From a virus, in the IMG/VR virus record IMGVR_UViG_3300025141_000274, positions 1 to 39,026 of that record: a stretch of DNA of 39,026 bases; one strand, 5' to 3'. Positions 1,315 to 39,026 of the stretch are shown here, one piece after another (position 1 is the stretch's first letter; every line of letters starts with the position of its first letter). The position numbers were made by a program, and so were the translations under genes. Under the pieces are notes generated by a model. The model ran no database searches. It was not told where the DNA came from and saw only the letters and a program-made list of their open reading frames with translations.

Positions 1315-2860
1315 CACCCTTCCAGTGCATGGCGCCGGTCTTCTTGGTCTCTTCATGTCCGCGCTTTCTCATCCTGGCACACATCGCTCGAGCGCTCATT
1401 GGTCGGATGCCCTGGTCCTTGCACCACATCTCGTACAGCCCGCGTAGTTTGCTGCGAGATATCGAGCCGTAGTTGCATGGGTTGGTGCATTCCTCAAGGA
1501 ATTGGCCGAATACGTCTTCCTCTTCCCGGTAGGTTTTCGTTTCGGCTACCACTGACGCTGGCACGTCGAGACCCCTTTCAAACCACTTCACCGCACCGTC
1601 AACCGCCCAACTCAAGATGGCGTCACCCTCTTGCAGCAATTCGATGTCGAGGTCTGCGTTGCGCTCGTTCGCCCCTATCGTGTTATCGAACGGTATCAGC
1701 AGCATACGGCGCCAGATACCATGGTCTGTTCCGGTGATGCGGGGCTTGTGGTTGCCTGAGAGCCAGAGGGTATGCGTCGGATCGAACGTAGTGAAGTCCT
1801 GCTTCATGCCTCGAGCGGTGATGGCATCGCCACCTGTGAGCATCTTCAGCTTCGCCTCATCGAACCCGGCACCCTCGGCAACCTCACTGCCAACCGCCAT
1901 TCGCAGGCCGCGCAAGAACATCATGTCCGTTGGGTGAACCCTGGACCGCTGCTTGATCAACAGGTCCGGTGGCGCTGCGCTCGCATAATCGCCCATCACC
2001 TTGAGCAGCACCCGAAACACGGTGCCCTTGCCGTTGGCGCCAGCGCCATGACAGAACAGGATGTGGTGGTCTCGCGTTGAGCCGGTCAGACTGTAGCCGA
2101 CCGCTCTCTGCATGAAATCGACCAGGTTATGATCACCCCGAAACACCCAAGAAAGGAACTCGAGCCACTTTGTTGGTTCGACACCCGGCGTATAGCGGTA
2201 CGGCGCCATCTTGGTGCATAAGAAATGTGGCTTTCGGGGCTTGAGCTCTCCGCTTCTGAGGTCTATAATGCCCGATTCGCAATTCAGCAACCATCGGTTT
2301 GCGTCCAGCTGTTCTGGCGTTACCGGAATGCCGCCCTCAGACGACGCCAGCTTCATCATCGCCGCACGTTTCGCCGCTGACTCGCTGCTTCTGGCGTGTT
2401 TGTTGATGGCTTCCTTGAGGTCTGCGTCGTCTTCGATCTTCTCAGCCTCGACAAAGATGTTCCGCACGACGTTCTTGACGTGCTTCTCGACCGCGCCGAC
2501 ACGGTCCTTGCCCCAGCGCTTGCCGTCCCAAACCAACCAGGTGTTCCAGTCGTGGCAGTAGCGCACCACTTCGCCGCATTGCTCCGAGAACCGCTCGGCG
2601 TTGCCGGTGTCGGTCAGACCCTTGGTGCGAAGCGGCGCTGGCTTGGAGGCATTGGAGATGGCGGCGCCAGCGGCCAGGGCGACATCGCCAGCGCTCAGAT
2701 TGTGCTTGTCGGCCCAATAGGTAAAGGCGTACCACATGTCGTCTTCGCTGACGCGCATCGCCTTGCCGCGAAACACCAACTCTTTGAGTTGCATCTCGAG
2801 GTTGGAGGACGGTGTCTGCTTGAGCAGCCACTCTTTCCACTTGTCCGACTGTTTGCTCAC
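1244..2860 (-). CDS. SF3 helicase, D5/P4-type (phage/plasmid primase C-terminal family)
   Basis: Likely replicative DNA helicase of about 538 aa. The SF3 core is clear: Walker A GAGANGKGT, then the Walker B-like segment RMAVGSEV, sensor motif LWLSGNHKP, and the arginine-finger region GIWRRMLLIPF. A D5_N-type region precedes it (about residues 100-260). The N-terminus is too short for the archaeo-eukaryotic primase domain that such proteins often carry, and no primase motifs are seen. The frame extends upstream to an ATG at 2899, but the GTG at 2860 overlaps the stop of the upstream gene as GTGA, with GGGG just before it, so coupled initiation there is preferred. The last gene of the leftward replication operon, it overlaps the convergent giant gene by 71 bp. 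The family is firm, the start less so. Confidence 0.9.
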   Translation of the reverse strand: MSKQSDKWKEWLLKQTPSSNLEMQLKELVFRGKAMRVSEDDMWYAFTYWADKHNLSAGDVALAAGAAISNASKPAPLRTKGLTDTGNAERFSEQCGEVVRYCHDWNTWLVWDGKRWGKDRVGAVEKHVKNVVRNIFVEAEKIEDDADLKEAINKHARSSESAAKRAAMMKLASSEGGIPVTPEQLDANRWLLNCESGIIDLRSGELKPRKPHFLCTKMAPYRYTPGVEPTKWLEFLSWVFRGDHNLVDFMQRAVGYSLTGSTRDHHILFCHGAGANGKGTVFRVLLKVMGDYASAAPPDLLIKQRSRVHPTDMMFLRGLRMAVGSEVAEGAGFDEAKLKMLTGGDAITARGMKQDFTTFDPTHTLWLSGNHKPRITGTDHGIWRRMLLIPFDNTIGANERNADLDIELLQEGDAILSWAVDGAVKWFERGLDVPASVVAETKTYREEEDVFGQFLEECTNPCNYGSISRSKLRGLYEMWCKDQGIRPMSARAMCARMRKRGHEETKKTGAMHWKGVIEGAELRASSSSAEFGAGDWNP

Positions 2861-3099
2861 TTCAACCCCATAAGCGCCCAAGCGCGACTGTCCGGCCATC
2901 GACCAGGCCGAAGTCTCTCTGCCGCTCTGACGAGCTCAAGAGCCTGCTGGGCAGACGTAATGCGCTGTAATCTCAGGCACTCGTGGAGGTAACTGCGCGA
3001 GATAATCTTGCGCCCCCTCTCAGTGCGCGCCTGCGCGGTGCGCGAGATGTTACCAAAGGTTTTGATCAAAGACTCTAGCGTTGTGTTTTTCCGTTTCAT
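2857..3099 (-). CDS. Small basic protein, possible HTH (Cro/YdaS-like)
   Basis: An 80-aa basic protein with no family I can name securely. A segment near the N-terminus (SLIKTFGNISRTAQ) followed by GRKIISRSYLHECL and RITSAQQALEL has the spacing of small Cro/YdaS-like helix-turn-helix proteins, in which a short first helix precedes a recognition helix and an R-I-x-x-x-x-A-L helix. Its ATG overlaps the stop of the XRE gene as ATGA, and its stop overlaps the GTG of the SF3 helicase. It is therefore translated from the same message between a regulator and a helicase. It could be a regulator, an origin-binding helper or a helicase loader. The gene itself is well supported by coupling, the function is not. 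Confidence 0.7.
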   Translation of the reverse strand: MKRKNTTLESLIKTFGNISRTAQARTERGRKIISRSYLHECLRLQRITSAQQALELVRAAERLRPGRWPDSRAWALMGLK

Positions 3100-3317
3100 C
3101 TTCCAACCTTGCGAAGTACATCGCTTGCCAGCATCCCAAGCGAGTCACACCATTGGACAAAACCGTCGAGAGTCAAACCGTCTCCCTTCTCCCAGTTCGC
3201 CATCGTATTGGCATGAACGCCAGCCCGAAACGCCAGCTCTTCCCGAGACAGGTTTCGCCGCTCGCGCGCCTCTTTCAGGAACTTGCTCAGTATTTTTCTT
3301 GTGTTACCAACCGCCAT
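3096..3317 (-). CDS. XRE-family helix-turn-helix regulator
   Basis: A 73-aa DNA-binding protein of the XRE/HTH_3 type. Residues about 10-65 carry the standard five-helix pattern: LKEARERRNLSREELAFRAG, then VHANTMANWEKGDG and a final helix ending LASDVLRKVG. The ATG at 3317 overlaps the upstream VRR-NUC stop (TGATG), which fixes the start. An upstream in-frame extension to 3389 lies inside that nuclease gene and is rejected. It probably regulates phage transcription. The palindrome over the promoter at 7614-7628 is a plausible operator because the regulator lies within that operon, which would make the circuit autoregulatory. That link is inference, and binding specificity cannot be read from the sequence. 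Confidence 0.9.
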   Translation of the reverse strand: MAVGNTRKILSKFLKEARERRNLSREELAFRAGVHANTMANWEKGDGLTLDGFVQWCDSLGMLASDVLRKVGR

Positions 3318-3679
3318 CACAGCCCCACTGCCTTGAGTGCCTCTTCCACAGAGCGGACGATGGCGTAGAGACCTCCGCGCCGCTCCCATACGTTCTGTTG
3401 CCAGTTCTTCTGGACCTTCGATTGCCTGCCCGTGGCAGTCTTGACCTCGAGCGCATAGGGCAGCGGGTGGACCTCATGTCCGCAGCGAGCGCAGACCTGT
3501 CCACCAATGATGCCCTGAAGGTCGGCCTCACCAGGCGTGCCGATTCGTTGCGGCCTGCCGTCTCGCGTGTAGAACGTGCCGACGTTGCGCCGCTGAACCA
3601 GCACAGTCGGCAGCGAGCCGAGAGCCATGCGAATGCGCTGCTGTATGACGTTTTCTTTTACGCCCATCGCCGGGTCCAC
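3317..3679 (-). CDS. VRR-NUC domain nuclease
   Basis: A 120-aa stand-alone VRR-NUC protein, a branch of the PD-(D/E)xK nuclease fold found in phages and in the nuclease FAN1. The signature reads GTPGEADLQG (catalytic Asp), then ALEVKTATGRQSKVQKNWQ (E-x-K with the following Gln-rich helix), then a C-terminal RGGLYAIVRS strand. A CARCGHEVH insertion supplies two cysteines and a histidine between strands. The GTG at 3679 has GAGGG eight bases upstream; an ATG at 3667 is the alternative. The start overlaps the end of the SF2 helicase gene, so the two are made together. It probably trims branched or single-stranded intermediates in replication or recombination, or degrades host DNA. Confidence 0.88.
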   Translation of the reverse strand: MDPAMGVKENVIQQRIRMALGSLPTVLVQRRNVGTFYTRDGRPQRIGTPGEADLQGIIGGQVCARCGHEVHPLPYALEVKTATGRQSKVQKNWQQNVWERRGGLYAIVRSVEEALKAVGL

Positions 3680-5106
3680 TTACGCACCCTCGAGGACGGT
3701 GGCGTTCGCACAAACTGCAGACCTGGAGGCTGAACGCCAACCTGGTGGTAGGACCATCGCCAGTGTCGGCCAGAGCGTATGCGAGCGCGCTCGGCCTCTT
3801 CCCAGTCCTGCTTGGTCACACCGGGCGGGCATGGCCGCGCACGTCGCATCTTGCCGTCTGGTGAGGTGATAGGCGCAGACTCTGGCGGCAACTCGACCAG
3901 TTCGCCCTTGACCAGGCGCACGCGCCGTTCTTTGATCAACAACTCGCCGCCACAAACAGAGCACACCGTTGCGTGCGCTGGCATGACAGCTGCACAGGCG
4001 CCGCACAACTTCGCCCTCGGCACCGCTTCGCTCGCTTCTTTCTTGGTGCGCGCCGCAATGTTCCACTCCATCGGATAGTCAAGGTTGCCGTGACGCAAGG
4101 CGCAACCGCCATGATCAAGGATGACCGCGTCCTTCTTGCCCTCGAGCGTCCTCAGAGCCCTGCCAGCCATCTGCCGCCACAACGACAGGCTGAGAGTCGC
4201 GCGAGCCACAGAGATGGCGCTGACGCGCCGCACATCGAGCCCTTCAGTGCAAACACCGACGTTGCAGACAACCATGGTCTCGCCAGACTCGAGCCTACCC
4301 AAGATAGCTTTGCGCTCGACGGTAGGGGTTTCGCCGTCGAGGTGCTCTGCCGTTGTCCACTTGCCTATTTCAGCGGCAAGAGCTCTGGAGTGTTTGACCG
4401 ACGAGGCAAAGACAATGGCACTTCTGTCGCCAGCGTACTTACGCAGGTTGTCGGACACTCCACCGACGAGCGGTTGCGACTCGTATTGCTGCGATTGCGA
4501 TGCGGAGGTGAACTCGCCCATACGCACGCGCAGGTCTTTGTAGTTGAGCATTGGAATTGAGTACGTCTTGAACGGCACCAGGTAGCCACCGCTGACCAGG
4601 TCGCGAATCGATGGACCCTCCATCAGGGTGGTCGCCCACGGGAAGCCGCCACCGTCAAGCCGCCAAGGCGTTGCCGTTAGGCCGAGTCGTCGCGGAGTCG
4701 GCCAGCGCCTAATCACCTTGAGGTAGCTTTCGGCAGCACCAAGGTGCGCCTCGTCAATCAGCAGGTAGTCTGGAGTCCAGGGCAGCGGTTTCTTGCGTCG
4801 AGCCAGCGTCTGAACCATGCAAATCTGTAGTGGCGCCCACGGGTCGGCGTTGCGCGGCCACTTGGCAGCTACAACGCCGGCCCGCAGGCCAAACTTTTCG
4901 GCAGTCTCGAGCCACTGCGAGACCAGCTCATCGCGATGGACGACGACTGCAACGCGGCCATGTACCGAATGAATCATCCGACACACCTCGACCGCCAGCA
5001 CCGTCTTGCCAGCACCCGTAGGTAGCTGCAAGACGACGCCATGGTGGTCTTGGTGGACGCGCCGCAGTCGATCAACCAGGTCGCTCTGGAAAGGACGTAG
5101 GTCCAT
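3658..5106 (-). CDS. SF2 DEAH-box helicase with C-terminal zinc ribbon
   Basis: A 482-aa superfamily 2 helicase or translocase resembling phage UvsW/RAD25/type III restriction-like enzymes. In order: Q-type segment LRPFQSDLV near residue 5, Walker A LPTGAGKT at about 28-35, DEAH box LLIDEAHLG, motif III LTATPW, motif V-like region NVGVCTEGLDV and motif VI QMAGRALRT. A CxxC-x9-CxxC zinc ribbon (CGAC ... CSVCG) follows the helicase core. The ATG at 5106 overlaps the preceding stop (TAATG), so the longer upstream frame is rejected. Coupling with a VRR-NUC nuclease suggests joint action on branched DNA, such as fork reversal, recombination or origin remodelling. Family certain, precise role inferred. 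Confidence 0.92.
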   Translation of the reverse strand: MDLRPFQSDLVDRLRRVHQDHHGVVLQLPTGAGKTVLAVEVCRMIHSVHGRVAVVVHRDELVSQWLETAEKFGLRAGVVAAKWPRNADPWAPLQICMVQTLARRKKPLPWTPDYLLIDEAHLGAAESYLKVIRRWPTPRRLGLTATPWRLDGGGFPWATTLMEGPSIRDLVSGGYLVPFKTYSIPMLNYKDLRVRMGEFTSASQSQQYESQPLVGGVSDNLRKYAGDRSAIVFASSVKHSRALAAEIGKWTTAEHLDGETPTVERKAILGRLESGETMVVCNVGVCTEGLDVRRVSAISVARATLSLSLWRQMAGRALRTLEGKKDAVILDHGGCALRHGNLDYPMEWNIAARTKKEASEAVPRAKLCGACAAVMPAHATVCSVCGGELLIKERRVRLVKGELVELPPESAPITSPDGKMRRARPCPPGVTKQDWEEAERARIRSGRHWRWSYHQVGVQPPGLQFVRTPPSSRVRKWTRRWA

Positions 5107-5552
5107 TAGAGCGGCAGCATCATTTTGGTCACATCGACCGCCGACTCGCCAGTGTCGATCAGACCCTGCAGCTTGTCGGCCATGAGTTGCGCGTTCGACG
5201 GCGAACTGCACATCACCTTGTAGCCCTGGTCGCCCTCGTAGTAGCGCAAGGTCATGTCCTCATCGACCTCGACCCGGCGATCCTGAGTCTCGCCAACGAT
5301 GTCCATCGCCGCTTGCTGCTGCTCGGGGGTCACCACCTTGGCGACCTTGGGCTTGACCATCGGAACAAACGCCCGCTTGACCTCGACGCGCCCCATCTCG
5401 AGCACCTCGACCAGCATCACAATGCAGTTGTCATCGGCGTCAGCAACAACCTGGTCGCGGACCCTGTTCGCCTGCCTCTTGCCCCTGAACTCCTCGCTGA
5501 CGATGGCAACCACATCGCTGCCCTCATCCTTGGTACACCAAAAAACGCTCAT
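5106..5552 (-). CDS. Conserved-looking phage protein of unknown function
   Basis: A 148-aa protein with no recognised domain. The N-terminal half alternates hydrophobic and acidic residues and has a possible beta-alpha pattern (VAIVSEEF, then CIVMLVEVLEM). The middle is K/V/P rich (MVKPKVAKVV), and the C-terminus is mixed helical. The ATG is preceded by GAGGAGGG four bases upstream, and its start overlaps the exonuclease stop as ATGA. The stop couples to the SF2 helicase start. Position between two DNA enzymes suggests a replication or recombination accessory factor. Nothing in the sequence itself shows an active site. Confidence 0.72.
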   Translation of the reverse strand: MSVFWCTKDEGSDVVAIVSEEFRGKRQANRVRDQVVADADDNCIVMLVEVLEMGRVEVKRAFVPMVKPKVAKVVTPEQQQAAMDIVGETQDRRVEVDEDMTLRYYEGDQGYKVMCSSPSNAQLMADKLQGLIDTGESAVDVTKMMLPL

Positions 5553-7649: not shown

Positions 7650-8831
7650 TCAAACCAACTCTGATGCCAGGCGCAACGCCAACTGAGCCTGCGCCGGCAC
7701 CACTGCGTTGCCTAACGCGCGCAGTCTAGCTGGCCGGTGCGGCGGCTTGCCCGTGACCGTGCGCGGTGGCTCATGATCATACTGTGGCGAGTCGCCCCAT
7801 TGACCCTTGATCATGGGCGCTGGAAAGGGCAGCGGTTGCGGTGCGTCACACTCGAGGTCAGTCCAGCCGAGCGGGAACCCCATCAACAATTCTACGAATG
7901 ACGGGCTGAGTTTCCCTGGCACCTGCATGTCCAGGGTCACTTGCTTGCCGATAGCGATGCGCCGCTTGATGCTAGGGTTGCGGTAGTCGCCACGGTTCTT
8001 ATCACCGTCTACCTTGACAGGGCTTGCCCATCGCTTCACCGCAACCGTCAGTTGCATCCCGGCGCCGTTGCCGTTGTTGTACAGCTTCTTGAGACGGTCT
8101 CGCCTTGCTTGGAATGCCTCGAGCGTCATGCCGTCGTTGAACACCCCGGCGTTCGGCGTCGGCCAGCGGTCGCCCCCCTTCACTTTCGGCCTGTCGGCTC
8201 GCACCGCATCAGTCAGCGACAAACCGCCGTGTGCCTTGCTACCGGGCGCATAGCGACCGCCAGACGACTTCGCATCGCCAGCGGTTGCGGTTGGCCAGCG
8301 ACCGGGTTGCGGTGCCTTGCCAGCCCGAATCACCCGGTGACCTTCGCGGCCTCGCTCTGCGAGGATGAACACGCGCCAGCGGAGGTGAACCGCGCCTGTG
8401 TGAGCGGCAGCAACGCGCACCCACGTCAAGCCATAGCCGATGTCGCCAAGCGCACGTTCGACCTCGGGCTGCCACTTCGATAGCAGGGCTTGGACGTTTT
8501 CAATGACGAGGTATCGCGGCTGCAATTCGGCAGCGAGTCGCACCATTTCAAAGAACAGCGCGCTACGTTCGCCGTCGACCAGACCAGCTTGCGTGCCAGC
8601 CGACGACAGGTCTTGGCAGGGAAAGCCGCCAGCGAGCACGTCGACCGGCTCGAGGTTTTCTGCGGTGACCAGGCGCACGTCATCATAGACGGGCACGCCC
8701 GGCCAGCGTTTCTCGAGCACCTTCTGGCAGTAGGGGTTTTGTTCGACAAACCATGCAGGGGTTGCCCCGAAATGGCGCTCACACGCCAAGTCGAGACCCC
8801 CGATGCCACTAAACAGACTACCGACCTTCAT
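7650..8831 (-). CDS. DNA (cytosine-5) methyltransferase
   Basis: A 393-aa C5-cytosine methyltransferase. Motif I SLFSGIGGLDLACE binds AdoMet, motif IV GGFPCQDLSSAG contains the catalytic Cys of the PCQ loop, motif VI VIENVQAL supplies the Glu, motif VIII is VHLRWRVFIL and motif X RALGNAVVP closes the fold. Motif VIII normally starts Gln-x-Arg; here the first position is His. Target recognition lies in the stretch between motifs VIII and X. The ATG at 8831 has GGAGGTG six bases upstream; about 120 upstream in-frame codons lie in the next gene and are rejected. No matching restriction enzyme is nearby, so it probably protects phage DNA from host restriction or marks it for regulation. Confidence 0.96.
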   Translation of the reverse strand: MKVGSLFSGIGGLDLACERHFGATPAWFVEQNPYCQKVLEKRWPGVPVYDDVRLVTAENLEPVDVLAGGFPCQDLSSAGTQAGLVDGERSALFFEMVRLAAELQPRYLVIENVQALLSKWQPEVERALGDIGYGLTWVRVAAAHTGAVHLRWRVFILAERGREGHRVIRAGKAPQPGRWPTATAGDAKSSGGRYAPGSKAHGGLSLTDAVRADRPKVKGGDRWPTPNAGVFNDGMTLEAFQARRDRLKKLYNNGNGAGMQLTVAVKRWASPVKVDGDKNRGDYRNPSIKRRIAIGKQVTLDMQVPGKLSPSFVELLMGFPLGWTDLECDAPQPLPFPAPMIKGQWGDSPQYDHEPPRTVTGKPPHRPARLRALGNAVVPAQAQLALRLASELV

Positions 8832-9229
8832 TTCAACACCTCCAGACTGGCCGACCGCTCGCACCAGATACAGCGACCGCAGCCGCAAGGGTGAGCTCGT
8901 GTGCGACATGTGATGCACAGGCCGTCTGGTTGCTCGTCCGGTTCGATGCAGATGTTGCAGTTCGCGCAGTTGTACCATTCTTCCGGTATCGTCACCTGTT
9001 CGCCATACGCCCAGTGGCTGAACGGCGACCCGTCGTCGTCGTCGGCTTTCTCGAGCGTGAACAGGACGCGGTTTTCTGCGACGATGGCCCATGGCGCGGT
9101 CTCGACATCGCGACCGTATTTCTCGCGACGTGCAGCGGTTATGGTGAGTCCAACTACCTTGGCGCGGCGGGCACGGTCTCGACCCCAACCACCGCGCCAT
9201 TCGACTGTGTCTCCGATTGCTACGTTCAT
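8828..9229 (-). CDS. Cys-rich zinc-ribbon-like protein, 133 aa
   Basis: A two-part protein of 133 aa. The N-terminal half (MNVAIGDTVEWRGG onward) looks like a small beta-rich domain with basic residues. The C-terminal half is Cys-rich: CANCNIC, then CITC, then CGCGRCIWC, enough ligands for two zinc sites. GGAGGTG five bases before the ATG at 9229 fixes the start. Its stop and the methyltransferase start overlap as ATGA, so the two are translationally coupled. It could be a nucleic-acid-binding partner of the methyltransferase. No homologue is recognised. Confidence 0.75.
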   Translation of the reverse strand: MNVAIGDTVEWRGGWGRDRARRAKVVGLTITAARREKYGRDVETAPWAIVAENRVLFTLEKADDDDGSPFSHWAYGEQVTIPEEWYNCANCNICIEPDEQPDGLCITCRTRAHPCGCGRCIWCERSASLEVLK

Positions 9230-9674: not shown

Positions 9675-10526
9675 TTATCCAACCAATCCAACAACGCGCC
9701 GTGATGCACTGAGCACCTCGATCGCTACGTTTCCGTTTCGTTTCTTTGCCGCTCGCTTGCGCGACGAATCGCCGCCGCCATGACGAACGACGAACACCGA
9801 CGAGCGCCGATCATCCTCGCGCCTTGCACCATCGCAAGCGCCGCATGCATGACACGGCAGGCCGCGACCACGTAGCGCGATTGACTCTGTCGACGATGGG
9901 CAGAGCATGAAACCGGCAGGTACTCGCGTTGCGAGCGGATCGCCAACGAGGAACACGCGCCAACCGAGAGCGATGGCACGTCGCGCCTCCGCTTCACTGT
10001 GAACCGATAGCATGTGCGACGATTGTAGGTGGACGGCTTGCGCCTCGTGCGTATAGCCCAGCATGCTGAACCCTCGACGCTTGGCGGTCTCGAGGATCGC
10101 CAGCGCCACATCGACCGGCAGCGCGGCAAGGTCGCCAGCGACCGCCGAGCGGACCCGATCGATGCGGTATCGCTTGGCGAGTGTCAGCGTCAACCGCCAT
10201 GCGTCCGCGTCGAAGCCTTCGCACGTCTCGATGGCGCGTGCCAGGTTCGCCGCCGGTTGCGTTGCCGCTTGCACGTTGTGCTGGACGTAGCACTTGCCGG
10301 TCTCGATGAACGGGCAGGAACCGCACACCGTCTCAATCTGCGGGCGAACGCTCCGAACATATGCCGCGCCGCGCGCGAGGCTTCCGCCTTTGAACGCTTG
10401 CATCTCCTGCCACGTTGACTCTGGCGCGATGGTCAAGCCGACCACCTGCCCGGTTTTCTTGTTGCCCTTGTTTATGGTTGCGATGGCGACGATGCCACTG
10501 CCCTTGTAGATCATTGCGTCAAACAT
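9675..10526 (-). CDS. DUF7227-like phage protein with Cys clusters
   Basis: A 283-aa protein that I match by pattern to a phage family I know as DUF7227; the number should be checked. Diagnostic features are NKKTGQ near the N-terminus, a first cluster VCGSCPFIETGKCYV, a middle segment VRSAVAGDLAALP, GYTHEAQ, then LGWRVFLVGDP, and a C-terminal CPSS ... CHACGACDG cluster. Six or more conserved Cys could hold a metal or Fe-S centre. The ATG at 10526 follows a G/A-rich ribosome site (GGGGGGAG). Its first eight residues, MFDAMIYK, are identical to those of the next gene upstream. Biochemical role unknown. The stop lies 21 bases before the next gene. Confidence 0.72.
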   Translation of the reverse strand: MFDAMIYKGSGIVAIATINKGNKKTGQVVGLTIAPESTWQEMQAFKGGSLARGAAYVRSVRPQIETVCGSCPFIETGKCYVQHNVQAATQPAANLARAIETCEGFDADAWRLTLTLAKRYRIDRVRSAVAGDLAALPVDVALAILETAKRRGFSMLGYTHEAQAVHLQSSHMLSVHSEAEARRAIALGWRVFLVGDPLATRVPAGFMLCPSSTESIALRGRGLPCHACGACDGARREDDRRSSVFVVRHGGGDSSRKRAAKKRNGNVAIEVLSASRRVVGLVG

Positions 10527-10896
10527 CGTCTCCCCCCTTGGTGGCACCTTCGCTCATCTTGATCAACAGCGCCCGCGCTTCCAAGTTGAACCACAGTTCA
10601 GCCGGTGGTGTGGGTTGTGTGTTGTCCATCCAACAAAGAACGAAGGACACACCGCCCTGGTCGCGCTCCTTCATCATGTAGCGGGCAGTCCAATGGTCGC
10701 TGTTCTCTTGCATCGTCCACACCCGATCGAATTCAAAGCCATCTCCGCCCCGATGAACCATCACAGTGCAGTCAACGCGCCGCCATCGAACGACGCTGGC
10801 CGTTGTATTGCCCGGCGCCCGGTACAAGTCGCGCCGATGGCCAACCACCTGAAAGCGTCCGCGCCATGCTCGCTTGTAGATCATCGCGTCAAACAT
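10519..10896 (-). CDS. Unknown protein sharing the MFDAMIYK start, 125 aa
   Basis: A 125-aa protein with a basic N-terminal part (KRAWRGRFQVVGHRRDLYR) and a Trp/Met-rich body (VWTMQENSDHWTARYMMKER). No family recognised. The ATG at 10896 has GAGGTGG five bases upstream; the frame extends further but overlaps the XF1762-like gene. The first eight codons are almost identical at the DNA level to those of the DUF7227-like gene that follows (27 bp with one difference). Its stop overlaps that gene by eight bases. The shared start may mark a duplicated translation initiation cassette or a common localisation tag. Confidence 0.68.
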   Translation of the reverse strand: MFDAMIYKRAWRGRFQVVGHRRDLYRAPGNTTASVVRWRRVDCTVMVHRGGDGFEFDRVWTMQENSDHWTARYMMKERDQGGVSFVLCWMDNTQPTPPAELWFNLEARALLIKMSEGATKGGDDV

Positions 10897-11333
10897 CGTA
10901 GCCACCTCTGCTTTTTTTCGGTTGGATAGAGCCCCGTCTTTCGGGGTCTCGCTTTGCAATTCCACTCGCCACCGCCAGCGGTCGCCGCGTCCAGGGTCCA
11001 ACCCGATGCGCGAAGAGACGTGCCCGGCTCGCTGACCAGCGTATAGGTGAAAATCCGACGATAGCCGATGGCCTTGGCTGCCCGTGCCGCTGCGCCGTAG
11101 AGCATCGAACAAGCGTTGCGCGTGCCATCGCTGGCAAGCCGCACGACCTCGCACGTCCAACCGTCCTGCAAACGACGCGCAACCGGGCGCCCAACGATGG
11201 CGACCGCGCGCACCTGGTCATCATCATCGATGACCGAGATGCAGAACAGGCAACCGCGCGCGGCCTTGTGGTGGCGATGATTCGCCGTGATAAAGGCGTT
11301 CGCCGCGCGGAGTGTAATCGGTTTCAGTTTCAT
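10881..11333 (-). CDS. XF1762-like protein, GNAT-type acetyltransferase fold
   Basis: A 150-aa phage protein of the XF1762 type, which looks like a GNAT acetyltransferase. Recognisable blocks are ITANHRHHKAARGC near residue 15, AVAIVGRPVARRLQDG, CEVVRLASDGTRNACSMLYG, the AA-rich helix ARAAKAIGYRRIFTYTL, and EPGTSLRASGW. The RxxG/A-type acetyl-CoA loop is not obvious in a strict form. GGGGGTG lies five bases before the ATG. These proteins are frequent in phage accessory regions, often with small Cys-rich genes. The acetyl acceptor is unknown. Its stop overlaps the next gene by 16 bases. Confidence 0.82.
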   Translation of the reverse strand: MKLKPITLRAANAFITANHRHHKAARGCLFCISVIDDDDQVRAVAIVGRPVARRLQDGWTCEVVRLASDGTRNACSMLYGAAARAAKAIGYRRIFTYTLVSEPGTSLRASGWTLDAATAGGGEWNCKARPRKTGLYPTEKKQRWLRCLTR

Positions 11334-11776: not shown

Positions 11777-11939
11777 CTTGTCACCTCCGAAAATGTTTTT
11801 TTCTTCTTAGAGTGCCTGAGGAAATCGGGATTGTCAACAATATCTTGTGTCTGCATGACCGGACACGGTTGCCTAGCTGTTGCGTCTTTGGCGAGAGCTG
11901 AGTTGACGCGGGCGGCGCCTGGTCGATAGTCTCCGAGAC
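11777..11939. promoter_or_regulatory. Divergent intergenic region with leftward promoter candidate
   Basis: This 163-bp gap separates the leftward accessory operon from the rightward HTH gene. On the minus strand there is a perfect -35 TTGACA (11832-11837), but no convincing -10 at 16-18 bases, the nearest being CACTCT, so this promoter is weakly supported. The -35 lies inside the inverted repeat ATTGTCAACAAT. A second inverted repeat, GTGTC/GACAC, sits at 11847-11851 and 11862-11866. Either could be an operator. Confidence 0.4.
11903..11930 (+). promoter_or_regulatory. Rightward promoter candidate, near-leaderless
   Basis: TTGACG (11903-11908) is followed after 16 bases by GATAGT (11925-11930). 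The expected transcription start falls within a few bases of the ATG at 11940, and there is no good Shine-Dalgarno sequence, so the HTH protein may be made from a leaderless or nearly leaderless message. The match is fair (five and four of six consensus bases). Confidence 0.45.
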
Positions 11940-12554
11940 ATGAACGAAGCGGAACCAGGCGGAACGTCGGCGACGAGGAAACACATCCTTCTCTGTAGCG
12001 AAGAGAAGGAGGAGCTTCAGCGGATTCTCGCCGACAAGAGAATCGACCCAGACTTGCGGATCCGAGCCCGAATCGTCTTGGATGCCGGCGACGGTTTGCA
12101 CTGGACGCACACCGCAAACGAACTGAAAATATCGCGCGCTCGAGTGCATCGCTGGCGCGGCCGGTTCCGGTCGCATGGCTTGCCAGGCATCACAATCAAA
12201 CTCGCGAACGGTCGCACACCGATCAAACGACTTGATCACACGCTCTCGCGCATGCCCGGCGATGGCGCCGAGGCAACGCCCGCCGACGTCAAGCGTGCAA
12301 TCGTCGCGTTCATGGCTGAACTGCCAGACGATGACCCGCGTTCGCCGCACGCGCCAAGGGCAAAGGTCAAACTTGGAGCGCTGACCCTACTCGCGCGCAT
12401 CGCATCCACCGAAGCCAAATCAGGAAACGAAAAGGAAGCCGATCAAACGCTGAGCTTATTGGAGACCTTGCGAGATGAAGCCGACGCCATCGCGGAGATG
12501 CCAGCACGCGAACCCCCGACGCTCGAGGATATCGTGTTTGACCTGGCGAAATGA
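11940..12554 (+). CDS. HTH protein with IS630-type DNA-binding domain
   Basis: A 204-aa protein. Residues about 18-95 match the IS630-transposase winged HTH: EEKEELQRILADKRIDP, then LRIRARIVLDAGDGLHWT, then ANELKISRARVHRWRGRFRS, then HGLPGI and a GRTP turn. No DDE catalytic domain follows. Instead there is a region with ADVKRAIVAFMAELPDDDP and a helical C-terminus (LGALTLLARIASTEA ... LEDIVFDLAK). This looks like a transposase DNA-binding domain recruited for phage use. Its position just upstream of the iteron region suggests an origin-binding, packaging (small terminase) or regulatory role. The downstream 741 bp hold no convincing gene. Family of the HTH is confident, role is open. Confidence 0.8.
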   Translation: MNEAEPGGTSATRKHILLCSEEKEELQRILADKRIDPDLRIRARIVLDAGDGLHWTHTANELKISRARVHRWRGRFRSHGLPGITIKLANGRTPIKRLDHTLSRMPGDGAEATPADVKRAIVAFMAELPDDDPRSPHAPRAKVKLGALTLLARIASTEAKSGNEKEADQTLSLLETLRDEADAIAEMPAREPPTLEDIVFDLAK

Positions 12555-12637
12555 ATCGCGGCGCTTCGCGCCTTCACGCTAGCGAGTACATACGTCCGTG
12601 GAGCTCGAGGCTGCGCCTCTCGCAGGGTAGGTGGTAA
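12551..12637 (+). CDS. Possible 28-aa coupled peptide
   Basis: An ATG overlapping the HTH gene's stop as ATGA opens a 28-codon frame (MNRGASRLHASEYIRPWSSR...) that ends at TAA 12635-12637. The overlap is the same coupling used throughout this genome. However, the frame runs across two GC-rich mini-hairpins, so the base composition may be dictated by structure rather than by protein. I keep it as a weak candidate only. Confidence 0.25.
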   Translation: MNRGASRLHASEYIRPWSSRLRLSQGRW

Positions 12638-12660
12638 GCCGCGCTCGTCGCTCGCTTCGC
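12560..12660. repeat. Trinucleotide-loop mini-hairpins
   Basis: GGCGC-TTC-GCGCC (12560-12572) and GAGGC-TGC-GCCTC (12607-12619) are perfect five-bp stems with three-base loops. On the minus strand the loops read GAA and GCA, that is GNA loops, and the core GCGAAGC occurs at 12563-12569 and again at 12654-12660. Single-stranded DNA with GCGAAGC forms an unusually stable hairpin, known from single-stranded phage origins. CGCTCG-like direct repeats fill 12641-12675. A role as protein-bound or single-strand-specific structure is inferred. Confidence 0.6.
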
Positions 12661-12848
12661 TCGCTCCTCGCTCCTGAGGTTGGGTGTCTGGGATAAAAGA
12701 CCGAAGACCCTCCCCCCTTTTTTATTTTTCTCTATGGTTTTTTTGCGGCGACCCTACTTTTTCACAAGAGCTGGGGTCTTTGCGCCCCAAAACACCCCAA
12801 CACTAAACGCCCGTTCAGTACAAAGGCCAAAACGCTGGGGCCTTTACA

Positions 12849-13167
12849 CCCCAAAGTACCCCGAAAGTACCCCGAAAGTACCCCAAGAACAAAAGCGAAC
12901 AATAACGCCCACCTACACCCCCATCCATCAGCTAAAGCATTTCGCTCCGGGGTACTTTGGACGACTTTTGTGCATAGCACTTGGGTTTCTGGAATGTTAA
13001 AACATCTGGGTTAGGATCACAAAAAACGGCTCTATCTACCCCGGATCAGGGTCTTTTCGTAATGATTTTGTATAGTTAGATACCCTCCCCAAAGTGCCCC
13101 GAAAGTACCCCGGATCGTGACACTGCTCTCCACCCCAAAGTGCCCCTAAAGTACCCCAAAGTACCCC
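12849..13167. repeat. Iteron array, nine AAAGT(A/G)CCCC copies
   Basis: Copies at 12853-12862, 12864-12873, 12875-12884, 12949-12958 (inverted), 13091-13100, 13102-13111, 13137-13146, 13148-13157 and 13158-13167. Within clusters the spacing is 11 bp (once 10), about one helical turn, so a protein would bind on one DNA face. Most copies are flanked on the left by CCCC plus one base. The inverted copy lies between two clusters. There are no unique spacers, so this is not CRISPR. Typical of initiator-binding iterons, but operator or packaging arrays are alternatives. Confidence 0.88.
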
Positions 13168-13170
13168 TAA

Positions 13171-13188
13171 CCTGACCGGGTGGTCAGG
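13171..13188. repeat. Seven-bp inverted repeat next to iterons
   Basis: CCTGACC (13171-13177) and GGTCAGG (13182-13188) are separated by GGGT. It lies four bases after the last iteron. Without a following T tract it is not a typical terminator. It may be a dimer binding site or a cruciform. Confidence 0.6.
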
Positions 13189-13201
13189 ATTCGGCCCACC
13201 C

Positions 13202-13235
13202 CCAGCTCTCTCCAGCTCTCTCCAGTTCGCTCCAG
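13202..13235. repeat. Ten-bp phased direct repeats
   Basis: Two exact copies of CCAGCTCTCT (13202-13211, 13212-13221) and a diverged CCAGTTCGCT (13222-13231), then CCAG. Exact 10-bp spacing is close to one helical turn, so a protein oligomer could contact each copy from the same face. Sits 60 bases before the first virion gene. Confidence 0.65.
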
Positions 13236-13295
13236 AAAAACTTGCCACCCTCGTCAGCGGCGTGTTATCACTCGCGCACGACCAGGAGGGTTGAT

Positions 13296-13703
13296 ATGAC
13301 CGAGCGTATTCCAGCCACCAGCGTGATCGCTGACGCCACTGGCATCGATTTGATGGCCCGACAGAGCAGCGAGTTTTTCGTCATCGAGAAGCAGTTCGCG
13401 ATTCTTGGGCTCGCTGCGACGACGAACACCGAGGACTTGTTTGAGGCTATCAACACGACGTTGGATGATATGGGGATGAGCGAAAAGGTGCCGAAAGCCA
13501 TCACGATGATGCCCACCCATGGCGATGGGATGTATCTGAAGACGTTCAACACCGACCCGGTGAACAACTTTGGTGCGGGCGCCGATGATCAGGGAATTTT
13601 GGTTGCCGAAGGGGACCGCATCACTCTGAAGATTGCTCAACCATCTGATGACGCACTCGGCTACCAGACGGCAGGTAGGGTGTACTGTGCCTGTTATTTC
13701 TAA
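13296..13703 (+). CDS. Unknown protein, first gene of the virion operon
   Basis: A 135-aa protein with no recognised domain. The N-terminus is MTERIPATSVIADATG and the body has beta-strand-like stretches (SEFFVIEKQFAIL, GDRITLKIAQ) and Gly-rich turns. It lacks transmembrane segments and has a conserved-looking Met-Gly-Asp turn region (HGDGMYLKTF). AGGAGG seven bases before the ATG at 13296 is the strongest ribosome site in this area and sets the start; the frame extends upstream to 13242 but without a site. The gene opens the rightward structural block and could be a virion surface protein or a late regulator. Confidence 0.72.
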   Translation: MTERIPATSVIADATGIDLMARQSSEFFVIEKQFAILGLAATTNTEDLFEAINTTLDDMGMSEKVPKAITMMPTHGDGMYLKTFNTDPVNNFGAGADDQGILVAEGDRITLKIAQPSDDALGYQTAGRVYCACYF

Positions 13704-14172
13704 GGATATTTCTACCATTGCGAGCCCACCTCGAGAGATTGTCGAGGGGATGCTGGTGGATACGCTCTGTCAGATAAAGGCGTCGATGGACGTGCTTTAT
13801 GAGATGCCAGACGTGATGGACCCGGTCGAGAACCTCAAGGCGACGTATGTCGTCGCCAGGATGGAGGTGAAGAATGCCGTCGAGCTCCTCCAGCACCACC
13901 ACGATGCGTCACTGAACCCGCGCCACCGCGCCGCTCGCCAGGTGATGCAGCGGTTTTTGGCGCTGCTCGAGGAGGACAACCTCGGCGCGGCGAAGATTGA
14001 CAGCCTGGCCGACGAGCGGTGCGTGCGATTCGTAAGAGAGCTGGTGCGGTTTATGACTGCCGTACACACGCTGCTTCATGTGGATACAGAGGCGAAAGAA
14101 CGAAAGGCGTTTCTGAGCGAATACATTGGCGACTGGATTCTGCCAGCGGCAGATACAGTTATCGAGGCATAG
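13687..14172 (+). CDS. Helical protein, small-terminase-like position
   Basis: A mostly alpha-helical 161-aa protein. A GTG at 13687 with GGTAGGG upstream and a 17-bp overlap of the previous gene is taken as the start; an ATG at 13750 is the alternative. Features: LVDTLCQIKASMDVLYE, a His-rich helix LLQHHHDASLNPRHRAARQ and a helical tail (RFVRELVRFMTAVHTLLH). No HTH is clear. The location two genes upstream of TerL would suit a small terminase subunit, but the sequence gives no proof. It is equally possible that the IS630-type HTH protein or one of the basic proteins is TerS. Confidence 0.68.
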   Translation: MPVISKDISTIASPPREIVEGMLVDTLCQIKASMDVLYEMPDVMDPVENLKATYVVARMEVKNAVELLQHHHDASLNPRHRAARQVMQRFLALLEEDNLGAAKIDSLADERCVRFVRELVRFMTAVHTLLHVDTEAKERKAFLSEYIGDWILPAADTVIEA

Positions 14173-26946: not shown

Positions 26947-27878
26947 GCAGCAGCATCCGTAGATTGACGCGCGAGCAGTTTGCCGATGGGACCACCATCG
27001 ACGGCAATCGGCTCGAGGGTGCGCTCGATGACGTCGTCAACCGGGTCAATGCGGTCCAGATTGGCGACCTCAAGCGCCGCTTCTTTCAAACCCAGTATGT
27101 GGGCGGTTACATGCCGATGCCAAAGAGGGCGTATGGCGACGTTCTGTTGGGTGCCCCTGGCGTTCAGGACGTGTTCCCCTGGTTGCCGGTGTATAACGGC
27201 AGGGAGACAACCACAAACGCTGCTGCGGACGATTTTGTCACCCCTGCTGCCGGGTTCAGCAATCGCTATCGGATGAAAGGGACGTTCAATGACGACATTG
27301 AGCCCGAACGGATTGATGCGGAATATCTTTTTGATCAATTTGTTTGGTCCTCTTCGATGTTCTTCTTTCGACCATGCGTTGTGGTGGGTGTCTCTGTTTT
27401 CGTTCATGTTGATGGTGTTGAGTATGAAAACGACTTGGCGTACTCCGCTGGTGCACCTCCAGAGCACAAGACTCCCAGCGGAACCTTGCGTGACTTTGTC
27501 GCAGAATTGAGCGTTGACAACCCCGTCTCTCAAGAGGCTCGCAATCTCAATGACATTGAGTACCATAGGGTCAACTTTCGTTTTGATTCTCGCAGGTTCT
27601 CCAACCTTGGCGGCGTCAACGGGACCGAGCCTGGCTCTCATACACCAACGGACATGAGCCCTGCCCATCCGGTCAATGACGGTGAGGTGCTAACGCTTGG
27701 CGGCATGTGGCTTGACGACCAGAACCTGAACATTCCGATCCATGAGGGTGCTAGGGTCCGATTGAACTTTTTGATTCCACAATATGGCGGCGTCTATCCT
27801 TCTGGTTGGGACGACGGAGACACTTATCAGGGACAATACTGGTCATGGACCCTGACTGTCCTCGAGGAGATAGAATAA
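26943..27878 (+). CDS. Virion structural protein, 311 aa, unknown
   Basis: A 311-aa protein starting with GTG at the overlap with the fibre gene. A short N-terminal region (IRRLTREQFADGTTIDGNRL) has the look of a phage baseplate or fibre attachment segment. The body is rich in aromatic residues and beta turns (EYLFDQFVWSSSMFFFRPCV, VSVFVHVDGVEYEN, YWSWTLTVLEEI). No enzymatic motifs. Ends at the ATG of the GIY-YIG-like gene. Probable receptor-binding or fibre component. Confidence 0.66.
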   Translation: MSSSIRRLTREQFADGTTIDGNRLEGALDDVVNRVNAVQIGDLKRRFFQTQYVGGYMPMPKRAYGDVLLGAPGVQDVFPWLPVYNGRETTTNAAADDFVTPAAGFSNRYRMKGTFNDDIEPERIDAEYLFDQFVWSSSMFFFRPCVVVGVSVFVHVDGVEYENDLAYSAGAPPEHKTPSGTLRDFVAELSVDNPVSQEARNLNDIEYHRVNFRFDSRRFSNLGGVNGTEPGSHTPTDMSPAHPVNDGEVLTLGGMWLDDQNLNIPIHEGARVRLNFLIPQYGGVYPSGWDDGDTYQGQYWSWTLTVLEEIE

Positions 27879-28225
27879 TGGCGAAGACAATCTATGCGTT
27901 GATCAACATGAAGAACCACAAGTCTTATATTGGCGTCTGCAGTGGATATGTCGGGGATGCTCTCGACAACTTGCGCCGAGACTTGGCCAATGGCGATGGG
28001 CCGAACAAGGACATGCAGGCCGACTGGGACAAGCAGGGTGGGCAGCACTTTGTTCGTCGCGTTGTTGAAAAGGTCGAAGACTCCGAGGCGTCCAAGGCGA
28101 TGAAGTATCACATCGAAAGGACGGGTGGCGATTACAACGTCGTTGAGGTGGCGCCCAAGCCCGTCGCCAAGCCCAAGCCCGTCGCCAAGCCCGTCGCGAA
28201 GAAGAAGAAGAAGAAGAAGAAGTAA
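27878..28225 (+). CDS. GIY-YIG-like protein with poly-lysine tail
   Basis: A 115-aa protein. Its first 85 residues follow the GIY-YIG nuclease pattern: IYALINMKNHKSYIGV (Y6 and YIG at 17-19), then a helix LDNLRRDLANGD, DMQADWDKQGGQHF, then VVEKVED and a closing KAMKYHIERTGGDYNVV. The catalytic Arg usually found about ten residues after YIG is absent at that spacing (GDAL there), so catalysis is doubtful. The C-terminus is Pro-Lys-Ala repeats followed by a run of Lys encoded by AAG triplets. It sits between structural genes and is coupled by ATG/TAATG overlaps. May be a DNA-binding virion protein or a degraded endonuclease. Confidence 0.75.
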   Translation: MAKTIYALINMKNHKSYIGVCSGYVGDALDNLRRDLANGDGPNKDMQADWDKQGGQHFVRRVVEKVEDSEASKAMKYHIERTGGDYNVVEVAPKPVAKPKPVAKPVAKKKKKKKK

Positions 28226-38700: not shown

Positions 38701-39026
38701 CCGACGAGGCATACGCCTTTGGCGACTCATCTGACAAGATCAACGTGGCATCGCGAATGTTTGATGTTGTTGAGCGCTCCGTATCAGACCTTGTAGATGG
38801 CGACTATTTGATGCTGGCTGTTGGAGCAGGGAAGCGGGTGCGACTCCAGAAGAAGGGGTTTGGCCTGTTCCTGAAGGGGCGCAAGTTGAACCGGCAACAA
38901 CTCGACACCATCATAGCGCGAGCAGCGTCGAAGGTGGCGCAAGACATGTTCTTCAACTACCGGCAAGTGTCCATGTTGAATGAGGTGGTGCGCCGAATGC
39001 CCATCCTTTCGACGGGCTCATCGTTT
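32766..39026 (+). CDS. Giant internal virion protein, N-terminal 2,087 residues
   Basis: Starts at ATG 32766, three bases after the preceding stop, and stays open to the window edge. Joined to 1-1314 it encodes 2,474 aa. Features by approximate residue: helical start (DFVAQDVKFGHTREEALRKA, 18-40); Gly/Ala segment GIAGAVGGVAGAAAAIPEG (260-285) that may insert in a membrane; GGFGATGASIKML (450s); coiled coil and Pro-rich stretches (700-1,300) with short tandem repeats; and a C-terminal part with VLSWNFPTHVRNKIQNIVYS (about 1,880). The pattern suits large ejection proteins that carry accessory domains and form a periplasmic channel. No lysozyme, RNA polymerase or protease motif was found. Confidence 0.8.
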   Translation, partial: MATPAKTAPEQSKWTSLRDFVAQDVKFGHTREEALRKAVGRLTDLGVDVERTDRRVIEEMFDVDVDEIKQRLPGWVYAKLPVDMSVLRPGMENIAAGLGALTKRAPKKPKKPTEYSPQQKRMLKVAGGSIDRTFIDDYDSMEQFLSDKERSPSRPLTLEGQVIQWREFNKVPRDKAMLRVQRLLGKSKAEMAEMTEDDYKVPMRKVAAQYLQRSAELAKRAPKKEPTTRPTGTYTPGAVTAGGALRAQGGPGFALASDLAAKAGRGIAGAVGGVAGAAAAIPEGVGEIVGLDIKVAKARLENDRRARKARKAGRGKFKPVDVAMKGTLFGDAFDVFGVADILEPESTPQSHILPLPERFELEMRVAGAKGQFGPGVMKVFDEYENNIEERLGMAGYEAARSDVAEVQEALLGLAASLGGLTRSGRADKDFLDAFSKDFKASNHMWTNMITGGFGATGASIKMLATGKGLGMIKARPVSTALIFAPFAKGVGRLAKSGNRGAMAIAKKFNLNKVVSTLDKIEQATEAVTTKPEGSAFNVFRGGSERFRWKGAEGQPLPTSKPVAYSVEAAQRMLHSVKQAGVGLVSLSGLTPDAVAAAVGVLVPEVSKFLWGEISPGRRAAIQRWLISTSINKNKNLGQIIEQIADDPAIARAEIESLGSEMAVRTKKGQVEMAEVVEGEPTAPPRRGPPPEAGPEPPTESRIEVARSVYPEEFAQRWVDDLKKADAGDEAASARVAELEDGLISEGSEGKRAVDRMARATVEEGQTVTGVADKISRGEKLTPMEEQYRRNNAQAVEAALEEVRQAPPRGEPREPPGPPEVPERVQALEAAEWWLKEAERSGEGIEAAQAAVGEAKANLRTPMEQRGPVAELQAALEKLEETNSRWFEATERWEDAVDRKDPFAGGFRKKADNLKNELDAQSREVARLEDAAGIPERDWQVPHGDELIAIEGPAARAAPEPVVETPPEVPNELLDAYRKHDKLYDELMEVTKAASKARAKPGLAVFKDPILKALHEKWGAISDEIAHQDRVIAGIEKTIELPEKFRQADPDAGPPIFIRSAPEPAAKPAAKPAAPERVDIYGDPLPPEPPAGRSAEAVAAAAKLAPPTARMAARDLKALYDAYNNKGEGWSKKQLRAAKAKLTKLSRKVDPNAPEASYVDVLGTRMGHKNPIKILKEREGASKRDTPRKELAAAERLKGEVGAEYSKALDALDEARARNDQFLEGYQKRARRLHDQERALDSEIFGEGGLQEAVHGPPSRSWMATYAPERLAALEAAKAAPEPVVEPVVEPVVEPAPPKKPSKFEVVEEDPFGEWSVEDPAAAKAELRAAREGLEATERHQGELRGHSEKAREEWVRAVEEGKRDTPEGVRASHDLASADYTEIVNDYQGLKRAALEGSEKARIDALLGEYTTVLDQFMRGKADLATLKSARKKFHNATESLPDVAGKQKFGAGDPFEMAEPGAAEPHFSGIPVRQRPPPTAPGVEPTPRPDPVVTELLPEGLVDVVVISDDGHYDVLAGRAGKRAARDVPVETTSPEFNSAIEEVHKAITDLKVEGLPTRSLARTKAVLTDALRDTGLYIMHDPKVLKSVIAHVVSKLNLSAKAKRAILKDKGFRDQIRKYVRHSLQKGRSQTATFKVAGSDVHISLDNAVAAVVKSMTKKQLRKAQAKAISVVTQNLAQNAYTSRMVGALEGQWRRFGKDREKYVAEKEKGGMTTEEAGLAWEADYSGDVVRNMLDGEHPAMLQIDAQAIRNTIALRGRGAPSIKQSAIDKYTPEGATFAEQTVVVEGLQKVAKALEEDFTPVSKKGKLDMYLRELYKEGGTAEKIFGRENLSESLEKGSVQKGFGSTLRANLWVESTMNENAALLWKIDRTARAHVLSWNFPTHVRNKIQNIVYSGLMFGETPVEVIAHSAKATKQWFDYKAGKLKAGRELDKMRALGRTELMQTTMIESEVGVAGTRDIFNLKEHAPGVAKVLKMPDEAYAFGDSSDKINVASRMFDVVERSVSDLVDGDYLMLAVGAGKRVRLQKKGFGLFLKGRKLNRQQLDTIIARAASKVAQDMFFNYRQVSMLNEVVRRMPILSTGSSF
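35951..35985 (+). repeat. Twelve-bp tandem repeat in giant gene (Pro-Ala-Ala-Lys)
   Basis: GCCTGCCGCCAA repeated twice and then partially, encoding PAAKPAAKPAA. A Pro-Ala-Lys linker between domains of the giant protein. Confidence 0.8.
36606..36647 (+). repeat. Twelve-bp tandem repeat in giant gene (Glu-Pro-Val-Val)
   Basis: GAGCCCGTCGTA three times plus a half copy, encoding EPVVEPVVEPVVEP. A single related copy lies at about 35640. Probably a stiff linker prone to copy-number change. Confidence 0.85.
38877..39026. repeat. Right copy of 150-bp end-to-end direct repeat
   Basis: Same bases as 1-150 apart from A at 38900. The giant frame continues through it in phase, showing that this gene crosses the artificial ends and that the true molecule is circular or permuted in the assembly. 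Confidence 0.93.

Follow-up and report, generated by a model that had tools for sequence, protein, structure and literature searches.

What is the function of a nine-copy repeat array lying in the only long gap between the genes of an uncultured phage, and could it be where replication of this genome starts? To our knowledge, replication origins have been established for hardly any uncultured phages. The window analysed here is a whole viral record of 39,026 nt. Its first 150 (1-150) and last 150 bases (38877-39026) matched with one difference, and one long gene of roughly 2,500 aa (32766 through 1314) spanned the join of the record, so the record, although handled as linear, is probably circularly complete; the genome, whether circular or redundant, would be entire or almost so. 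The gene-free gap (12555-13296) was located between the stop of an HTH gene at 12554 and a gene start at 13297; the array in it lies just to the left of the structural operon, with TerL 1.6 kb further on. Described in a preliminary account as 741 bp long, it measured 742 bp, or 687 bp if a TTG start at 13242 is used.

Nine exact copies of AAAGTRCCCC were observed within 12853-13167, eight of them forward (starting at 12853, 12864, 12875, 13091, 13102, 13137, 13148 and 13158) and one inverted (12949), in agreement with the number and orientation in the preliminary description. The count expected by chance was close to zero: when the 742-bp gap was resampled 5,000 times under a first-order Markov model, the mean was 0.008 copies and the maximum 1. 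The commonest repeated 10-mer of the genome was AAAGTACCCC, which accounted for seven of the nine array copies, the other two being AAAGTGCCCC. A tenth copy, also AAAGTGCCCC, was found inside a structural gene at 33273 and looks like a chance occurrence. With up to one mismatch allowed, no other intergenic copy was found in the genome, including the region between divergent genes at 11777-11939. The copies formed three clusters (3, 2 and 3) plus the lone inverted copy, with steps of 10-11 bp inside the clusters only. Since the clusters and the lone copy were separated by start-to-start distances of 74, 142 and 35 bp, the helical phasing previously ascribed to copies mostly 11 bp apart holds inside the three clusters but not for the array as a whole. 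The features of the gap and of the replication module are listed in Table 1.

Table 1. Positions of the iterons, conserved blocks and associated genes in the 39,026-nt window (L012, sister phage; L095 and L138, other genomes with the iteron core).
Feature	Position	Strand	Remarks
D5/SF3 helicase, 551 aa	1244..2899	-	Pfam D5_N 1.9e-30, DUF5906 1.7e-7; putative iteron-binding initiator
80-aa small protein	2857..3099	-	directly upstream of D5, overlapping it; 85% identical in L012; possible accessory factor
XRE-type HTH regulator	3096..3389	-	no match in L095 or L138 genomes
SF2 helicase, replication module	3658..5211	-	phrog_16 3.5e-83
HTH protein left of array	11940..12554	+	HTH_23 9.1e-8; 58% identical to L012
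Left iteron cluster	12853..12884	+	three AAAGTACCCC, 11 bp apart; L012 counterparts 8499, 8510, 8521
Lone inverted iteron	12949..12958	-	96 bp from first copy; L012 8595-8604, same offset, one mismatch
Block identical in L012, between the two iteron sets	13015..13042	+	28 bp
Right iteron cluster, first part	13091..13111	+	two copies, 11 bp apart
Right iteron cluster, second part	13137..13167	+	three copies, 11 and 10 bp apart
Two conserved runs	13230..13273	+	26 and 17 bp; just before rightward operon, outside array

Conservation of the iterons in related phages had been proposed as a check, and it was borne out in a sister phage (L012, part of a 32-kb fragment found by a TerL alignment scan; TerL 88% identical), which retained all nine copies in the same order, orientation and spacing. 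The layout of 3 + 1 inverted + 2 + 3 again lay in the gap separating the HTH gene from the first rightward gene, and the offsets from the first copy (0, 11, 22, 96 inverted, 237-238, 248-249, 283-284, 294-295 and 304-305) agreed within one base between the two phages. Identity was 97% for iteron bases (87 of 90) but 64% for the DNA between iterons (143 of 225; Fisher p 3e-11), and two of the three iteron changes hit the position already variable within the window. The base linking adjacent copies changed from G in the window to T in the sister phage at several places, indicating that selection acts on the 10-mer and its spacing. The L012 record stops short of D5, and the comparison therefore covers the array and not its co-conservation with the helicase.

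The longest run identical to the sister phage (37 bp, 13143-13179) overlapped the right iteron cluster. The conserved runs just before the rightward operon are a possible promoter region; a promoter consensus scan returned no promoter at 13230-13273, and promoter, terminator and Rfam scans of the gap gave nothing decisive. Elsewhere in the gap, a 29-bp pyrimidine-rich tract after the HTH gene (12703-12731), identical in L012, may belong to a terminator, and three to four tandem units of a short CCAGCTCTCT-like repeat, fewer in L012, were observed between the array and the next gene at 13202-13237.

The AT-rich stretch reported earlier was modest by base count (up to 67% AT), yet nearest-neighbour energies placed 13022-13082 within the least stable 0.06% of all 60-bp windows in the genome, and the matching stretch of the sister phage was the least stable of its locus. 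We regard 13022-13082 as the probable melting site. The other D5 arrays examined behaved alike: in each, the least stable 60-bp stretch between copies fell within the lowest 0.01-0.43% of its locus. Adjacent iteron groups were also separated by gaps of 72-75 bp in the window (12877-12949), L138 (3223-3296), L104 (8463-8537) and L182 (15352-15427), a recurrence across four unrelated D5 arrays that may be due to chance.

The 551-aa helicase contained the D5_N and SF3 ATPase domains of the D5-type SF3 initiator class and matched PHROG primase/helicase families down to 1e-122. Its Pox_D5 match was weak and sub-threshold, while among 43 aligned proteins Pox_D5 was matched in 26 and RFX in 5. An AlphaFold2 model built from 43 sequences (pLDDT 89.5) aligned with the SaPI5 primase-helicase (Z 29.6, 4.6 A over 392 residues, reaching residue 540), with African swine fever PrimPol, vaccinia D5 and NrS-1, and, through its ATPase part, with AAV Rep40. 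Residues 463-531 were modelled with pLDDT above 90 as helix-strand-helix-helix-strand-strand, the element order of a winged helix, and we predict a C-terminal winged-helix domain there. No primase domain was found in D5, and a genome-wide search for Prim-Pol domains found none. Domain searches and PHROG scans of the genome found no PolA, PolB or Prim-Pol families, consistent with the original description of an SF3 helicase without a recognised polymerase. Besides D5 itself, which matched families named primase or polymerase/primase via its helicase part, the only polymerase-labelled match was an exonuclease subunit (RNase_T domain). Like the window with its SF2 helicase, phage P185 has a DEAD/DEAH helicase near D5.

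A Mom-like DNA modification protein (10881-11333, minus strand; phrog_1384, 5e-34; 97% identical in L012) shares a cluster with a DNA methyltransferase gene (7650-9200), and a phrog_2554 protein of unknown function (9675-10547, minus strand; 93% identical in L012) was among the most conserved genes of the pair. On the plus strand, 27806-28225, set among the structural genes, encodes a lysine/proline-rich tail behind an N-terminal domain of homing-endonuclease type (phrog_7168, 1.5e-6), and 13633-14172 encodes an unknown protein whose counterparts lie immediately before TerL in most of the distant relatives (L001, L013-L015, L017-L020, L022, L023), with no match in L016/L021.

We scanned 2.9 million IMG/VR viral contigs and about 85,000 GTDB genomes for the pair pattern AAAGTRCCCC-N0-2-AAAGTRCCCC, which gave 8 and 72 matches, respectively. 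A first, three-copy pattern with a purine linker had returned zero matches because the linker base is T in the sister phage. Outside the window and the L012 family, only two matches, L095 and L138, had at least 8 copies of AGTRCCCC within about 1 kb. Both of these dispersed arrays co-occurred with a D5 helicase, whereas D5 was absent from the locus of every low-density match (whole contig for viral matches, about 8 kb around each bacterial match), a contrast for which the density threshold was picked after the counts were seen. L095 is an actinophage contig with a D5 33% identical to that of the window and its array 7.6 kb further on, before a TerS/TerL operon whose terminase is unrelated to that of the window. 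In L138, an Actinomadura contig or element, D5 ends at 3113 and the array occupies 3135-3355. No shared recognition helix was seen among the three D5 proteins with AGTRCCCC, and their C-terminal regions were not visibly more alike than those of other D5 proteins. Two matches with six compact copies each (L111 and L146) were set aside as tandem repeats without D5; the six 11-bp GGGGCACTTTT-like repeats of L111 (2787-2849) fall within a rumen bacterium's gene for an ATP-binding regulator.

D5 loci were collected more broadly by an alignment-based scan, a single-protein D5 scan having given no matches. At least five copies of one 8-mer were found within 620 bp 3' of D5 in 26 of 79 IMG/VR loci, compared with 4 of 72 upstream and 0 of 80 inside the gene; many of the loci are close relatives, so these counts are not independent. 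A strong 3' array was absent at about two thirds of the loci. In a small sample, scored by the top array of each record or locus (the 8-kb locus for L138), the top 8-mer array was directly 3' of D5 in all six elements with no polymerase gene listed or seen, whereas none of three D5 phages with DNA polymerase I (L181, L183, L184) had an iteron array after D5. In the cultured D5 phages checked, the array, where present, adjoined the helicase gene. Sixteen D5 records, mostly the closest in sequence, each contained at most five scattered AGTRCCCC and no cluster, which indicates that the iteron varies within the D5 family.

Several other functions of the array were weighed against these results. 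It could be a packaging site, with a small terminase (possibly the 11940-12554 protein) binding the repeats and the terminase starting headful packaging or cutting there. The position just left of the structural operon fits this, as does the array of L095 in front of its terminase operon; small terminases are encoded in a similar place in the distant relatives L014 and L024, and the C-terminal half of the 11940-12554 protein matched 88-aa proteins upstream of TerL in L016/L021. That protein is possibly a small terminase or a regulator. Its HTH half, however, had diverged from L012 while the iteron was unchanged, which makes it an unlikely iteron binder, and its structure model (pLDDT 68.6) had no PDB match and no terminase match. 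No relatives of it were found in the viral contigs by single-sequence and L012-pair scans, or in the phage collection. One iteron core was moreover found with two unrelated terminases, and the L138 array adjoins D5 in an 8-kb locus where no terminase was recognised, so we judge packaging to be quite unlikely. An operator array, at which the XRE, 80-aa or 11940-12554 protein would regulate the rightward late operon or else the early genes transcribed leftward, agrees with the presence of three small proteins, each either a DNA binder or resembling one, with the position upstream of the rightward operon and with the use of short direct repeats by some regulators. The motif was nevertheless missing from the other intergenic regions, where an operator shared by several promoters would recur, and the possible promoter block sits at least 60 bp beyond the array. 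The L095 contig yielded no relatives of the 80-aa, XRE or HTH protein, and in the L138 Actinomadura genome the first two were unmatched, while HTH gave only weak partial domain matches on another contig. We consider control of transcription very unlikely.

The same distribution speaks against the three proteins as iteron binders, the role suggested for them initially, as D5 is present in both L095 and L138. It bears in particular on the proposal that the array is an origin at which a small initiator distinct from D5, such as the 80-aa protein, binds the iterons and then loads D5. Such an arrangement has a precedent in RSF1010, where RepC is a separate iteron binder (PMC4234260); the 80-aa gene overlaps D5 from directly upstream, and a D5 without a primase domain means that initiator roles may be split over several proteins. 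Against it, the 80-aa protein was unmatched in both other genomes with the iteron, and Cch2 and SaPI Rep bind iterons by the helicase's own C-terminal domain (PMC7581432), which leaves a separate initiator unlikely. The repeats might instead act as structural DNA, with G-quadruplex or i-motif tracts involving the GGGG strand, given that the minus strand of the left cluster, and likewise of the outer right cluster, contains four GGGG runs separated by loops of 6-7 nt. The loop letters AAAGTR were conserved, though, while T replaced G as the linker base, and the single inverted copy, unable to form a quadruplex alone, was kept at its exact spacing. A protein site fits both observations better, and we give the structural alternative hardly any credence.

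We conclude that the array is probably the replication origin of the phage, bound by the D5 helicase, with a host polymerase extending the strands. This reading builds on the array, its conservation, the low-stability core, the D5 fold, the lack of recognised phage polymerase families and the association of iteron and D5 in unrelated phages. From these we infer D5 binding, hexamer assembly, melting, recruitment of the host polymerase and the direction of replication as follows. D5 would recognise the AAAGTRCCCC iterons via its C-terminal winged-helix domain, assemble as hexamers on both iteron sets, melt the weak DNA between them (13015-13082) and leave outward as the replicative helicase, and host primase and host DNA polymerase would copy the strands. 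The idea first put forward, an iteron origin with an SF3 helicase and host polymerase, is in its core the best supported of the readings (PMC7581432, PMC6092414), with the binding step proposed. The GC-skew check suggested with it proved uninformative, as the minimum at 13,283 coincides with the flip in gene direction. Third-codon-position skew was near zero in most long genes of both arms, so GC skew reflects gene direction and was not counted as origin evidence. Some points weigh against an origin served by D5. Compact tandem repeats of similar sequence occur without D5 (L111, L146), most D5 loci lack a strong 3' array, and the D5 proteins that accompany this iteron show no special likeness in their C-terminal recognition regions. 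In addition, the array, the top array of the genome, is about 10 kb from D5 and none lies 3' of the helicase gene, whereas the arrays of PICI, SCCmec and most D5 phages examined here directly follow it. The 7.6-kb separation in L095 is a parallel.

More tentatively, we suggest that this podovirus lineage uses an SF3 origin 10 kb from its initiator gene with no recognised primase or polymerase and that, in general, D5 phages lacking a polymerase use PICI-type iteron origins, an organisation described until now as peculiar to satellites, with the AGTRCCCC core recurring in unrelated phages; we hold this broader proposal to be possible, a little short of an even chance. A suggested rule would be that phages encoding a D5/SF3 helicase but lacking a DNA polymerase should carry an iteron array, usually directly after the helicase gene, and that this array is the origin. 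Such a rule would link free-living phages to PICI and P4-type satellites, and the D5 helicase with its 330-bp origin offers a ready-made pair for testing.

Among known systems, the closest model is the SF3 type of origin found in PICI/SaPI satellites and P4, whose helicase binds the iterons itself, and not the Rep-iteron plasmid implied by the plasmid-like initiation first envisaged. The kind of origin is already known, and the phage is best read as a variation on it, with an initiator that lacks a primase domain and is encoded 10 kb away. Iteron plasmids (Rep) and the lambda origin (O) resemble the phage in having direct repeats beside a melting region and in using the host replisome. Rep and O are not helicases, however, and their iterons are about 18-22 bp long; the P4 iteron also differs in sequence from that of the phage. 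P4 alpha is, like the phage D5, an SF3 helicase with a C-terminal winged helix, which binds the origin repeats (PMC4234260, citing Yeo et al. 2002), but it carries a Toprim-type primase (PMC4234260). Some primase-SF3 phages have been proposed to use a stem-loop instead (PMC4234260), so iterons are not universal. Cch2 of SCCmec is a D5_N helicase whose C-terminal domain (residues 400-538) binds direct repeats downstream of its gene, a domain predicted in the phage D5 as well, and its unwinding requires the iteron AAGTG, which is contained in the phage AAAGTGCCCC (PMC7581432). SCCmec differs in that its iterons number only three and follow cch2 directly, and in its partner primase-polymerase, CCPol-MP. 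In PICI origins an AT-rich region is always bracketed by two sets of iterons, a layout described as common to no other known bacterial replicon (PMC6092414). The phage shares with PICI/SaPI elements such as SaPI5 (Rep) the two sets of short iterons around a weak AT-rich stretch, the D5-type SF3 helicase and the expected use of a host polymerase (PMC6092414, PMC7581432), but the PICI/SaPI origin directly follows rep, and SaPI5 Rep has the primase domain that the phage D5 lacks.
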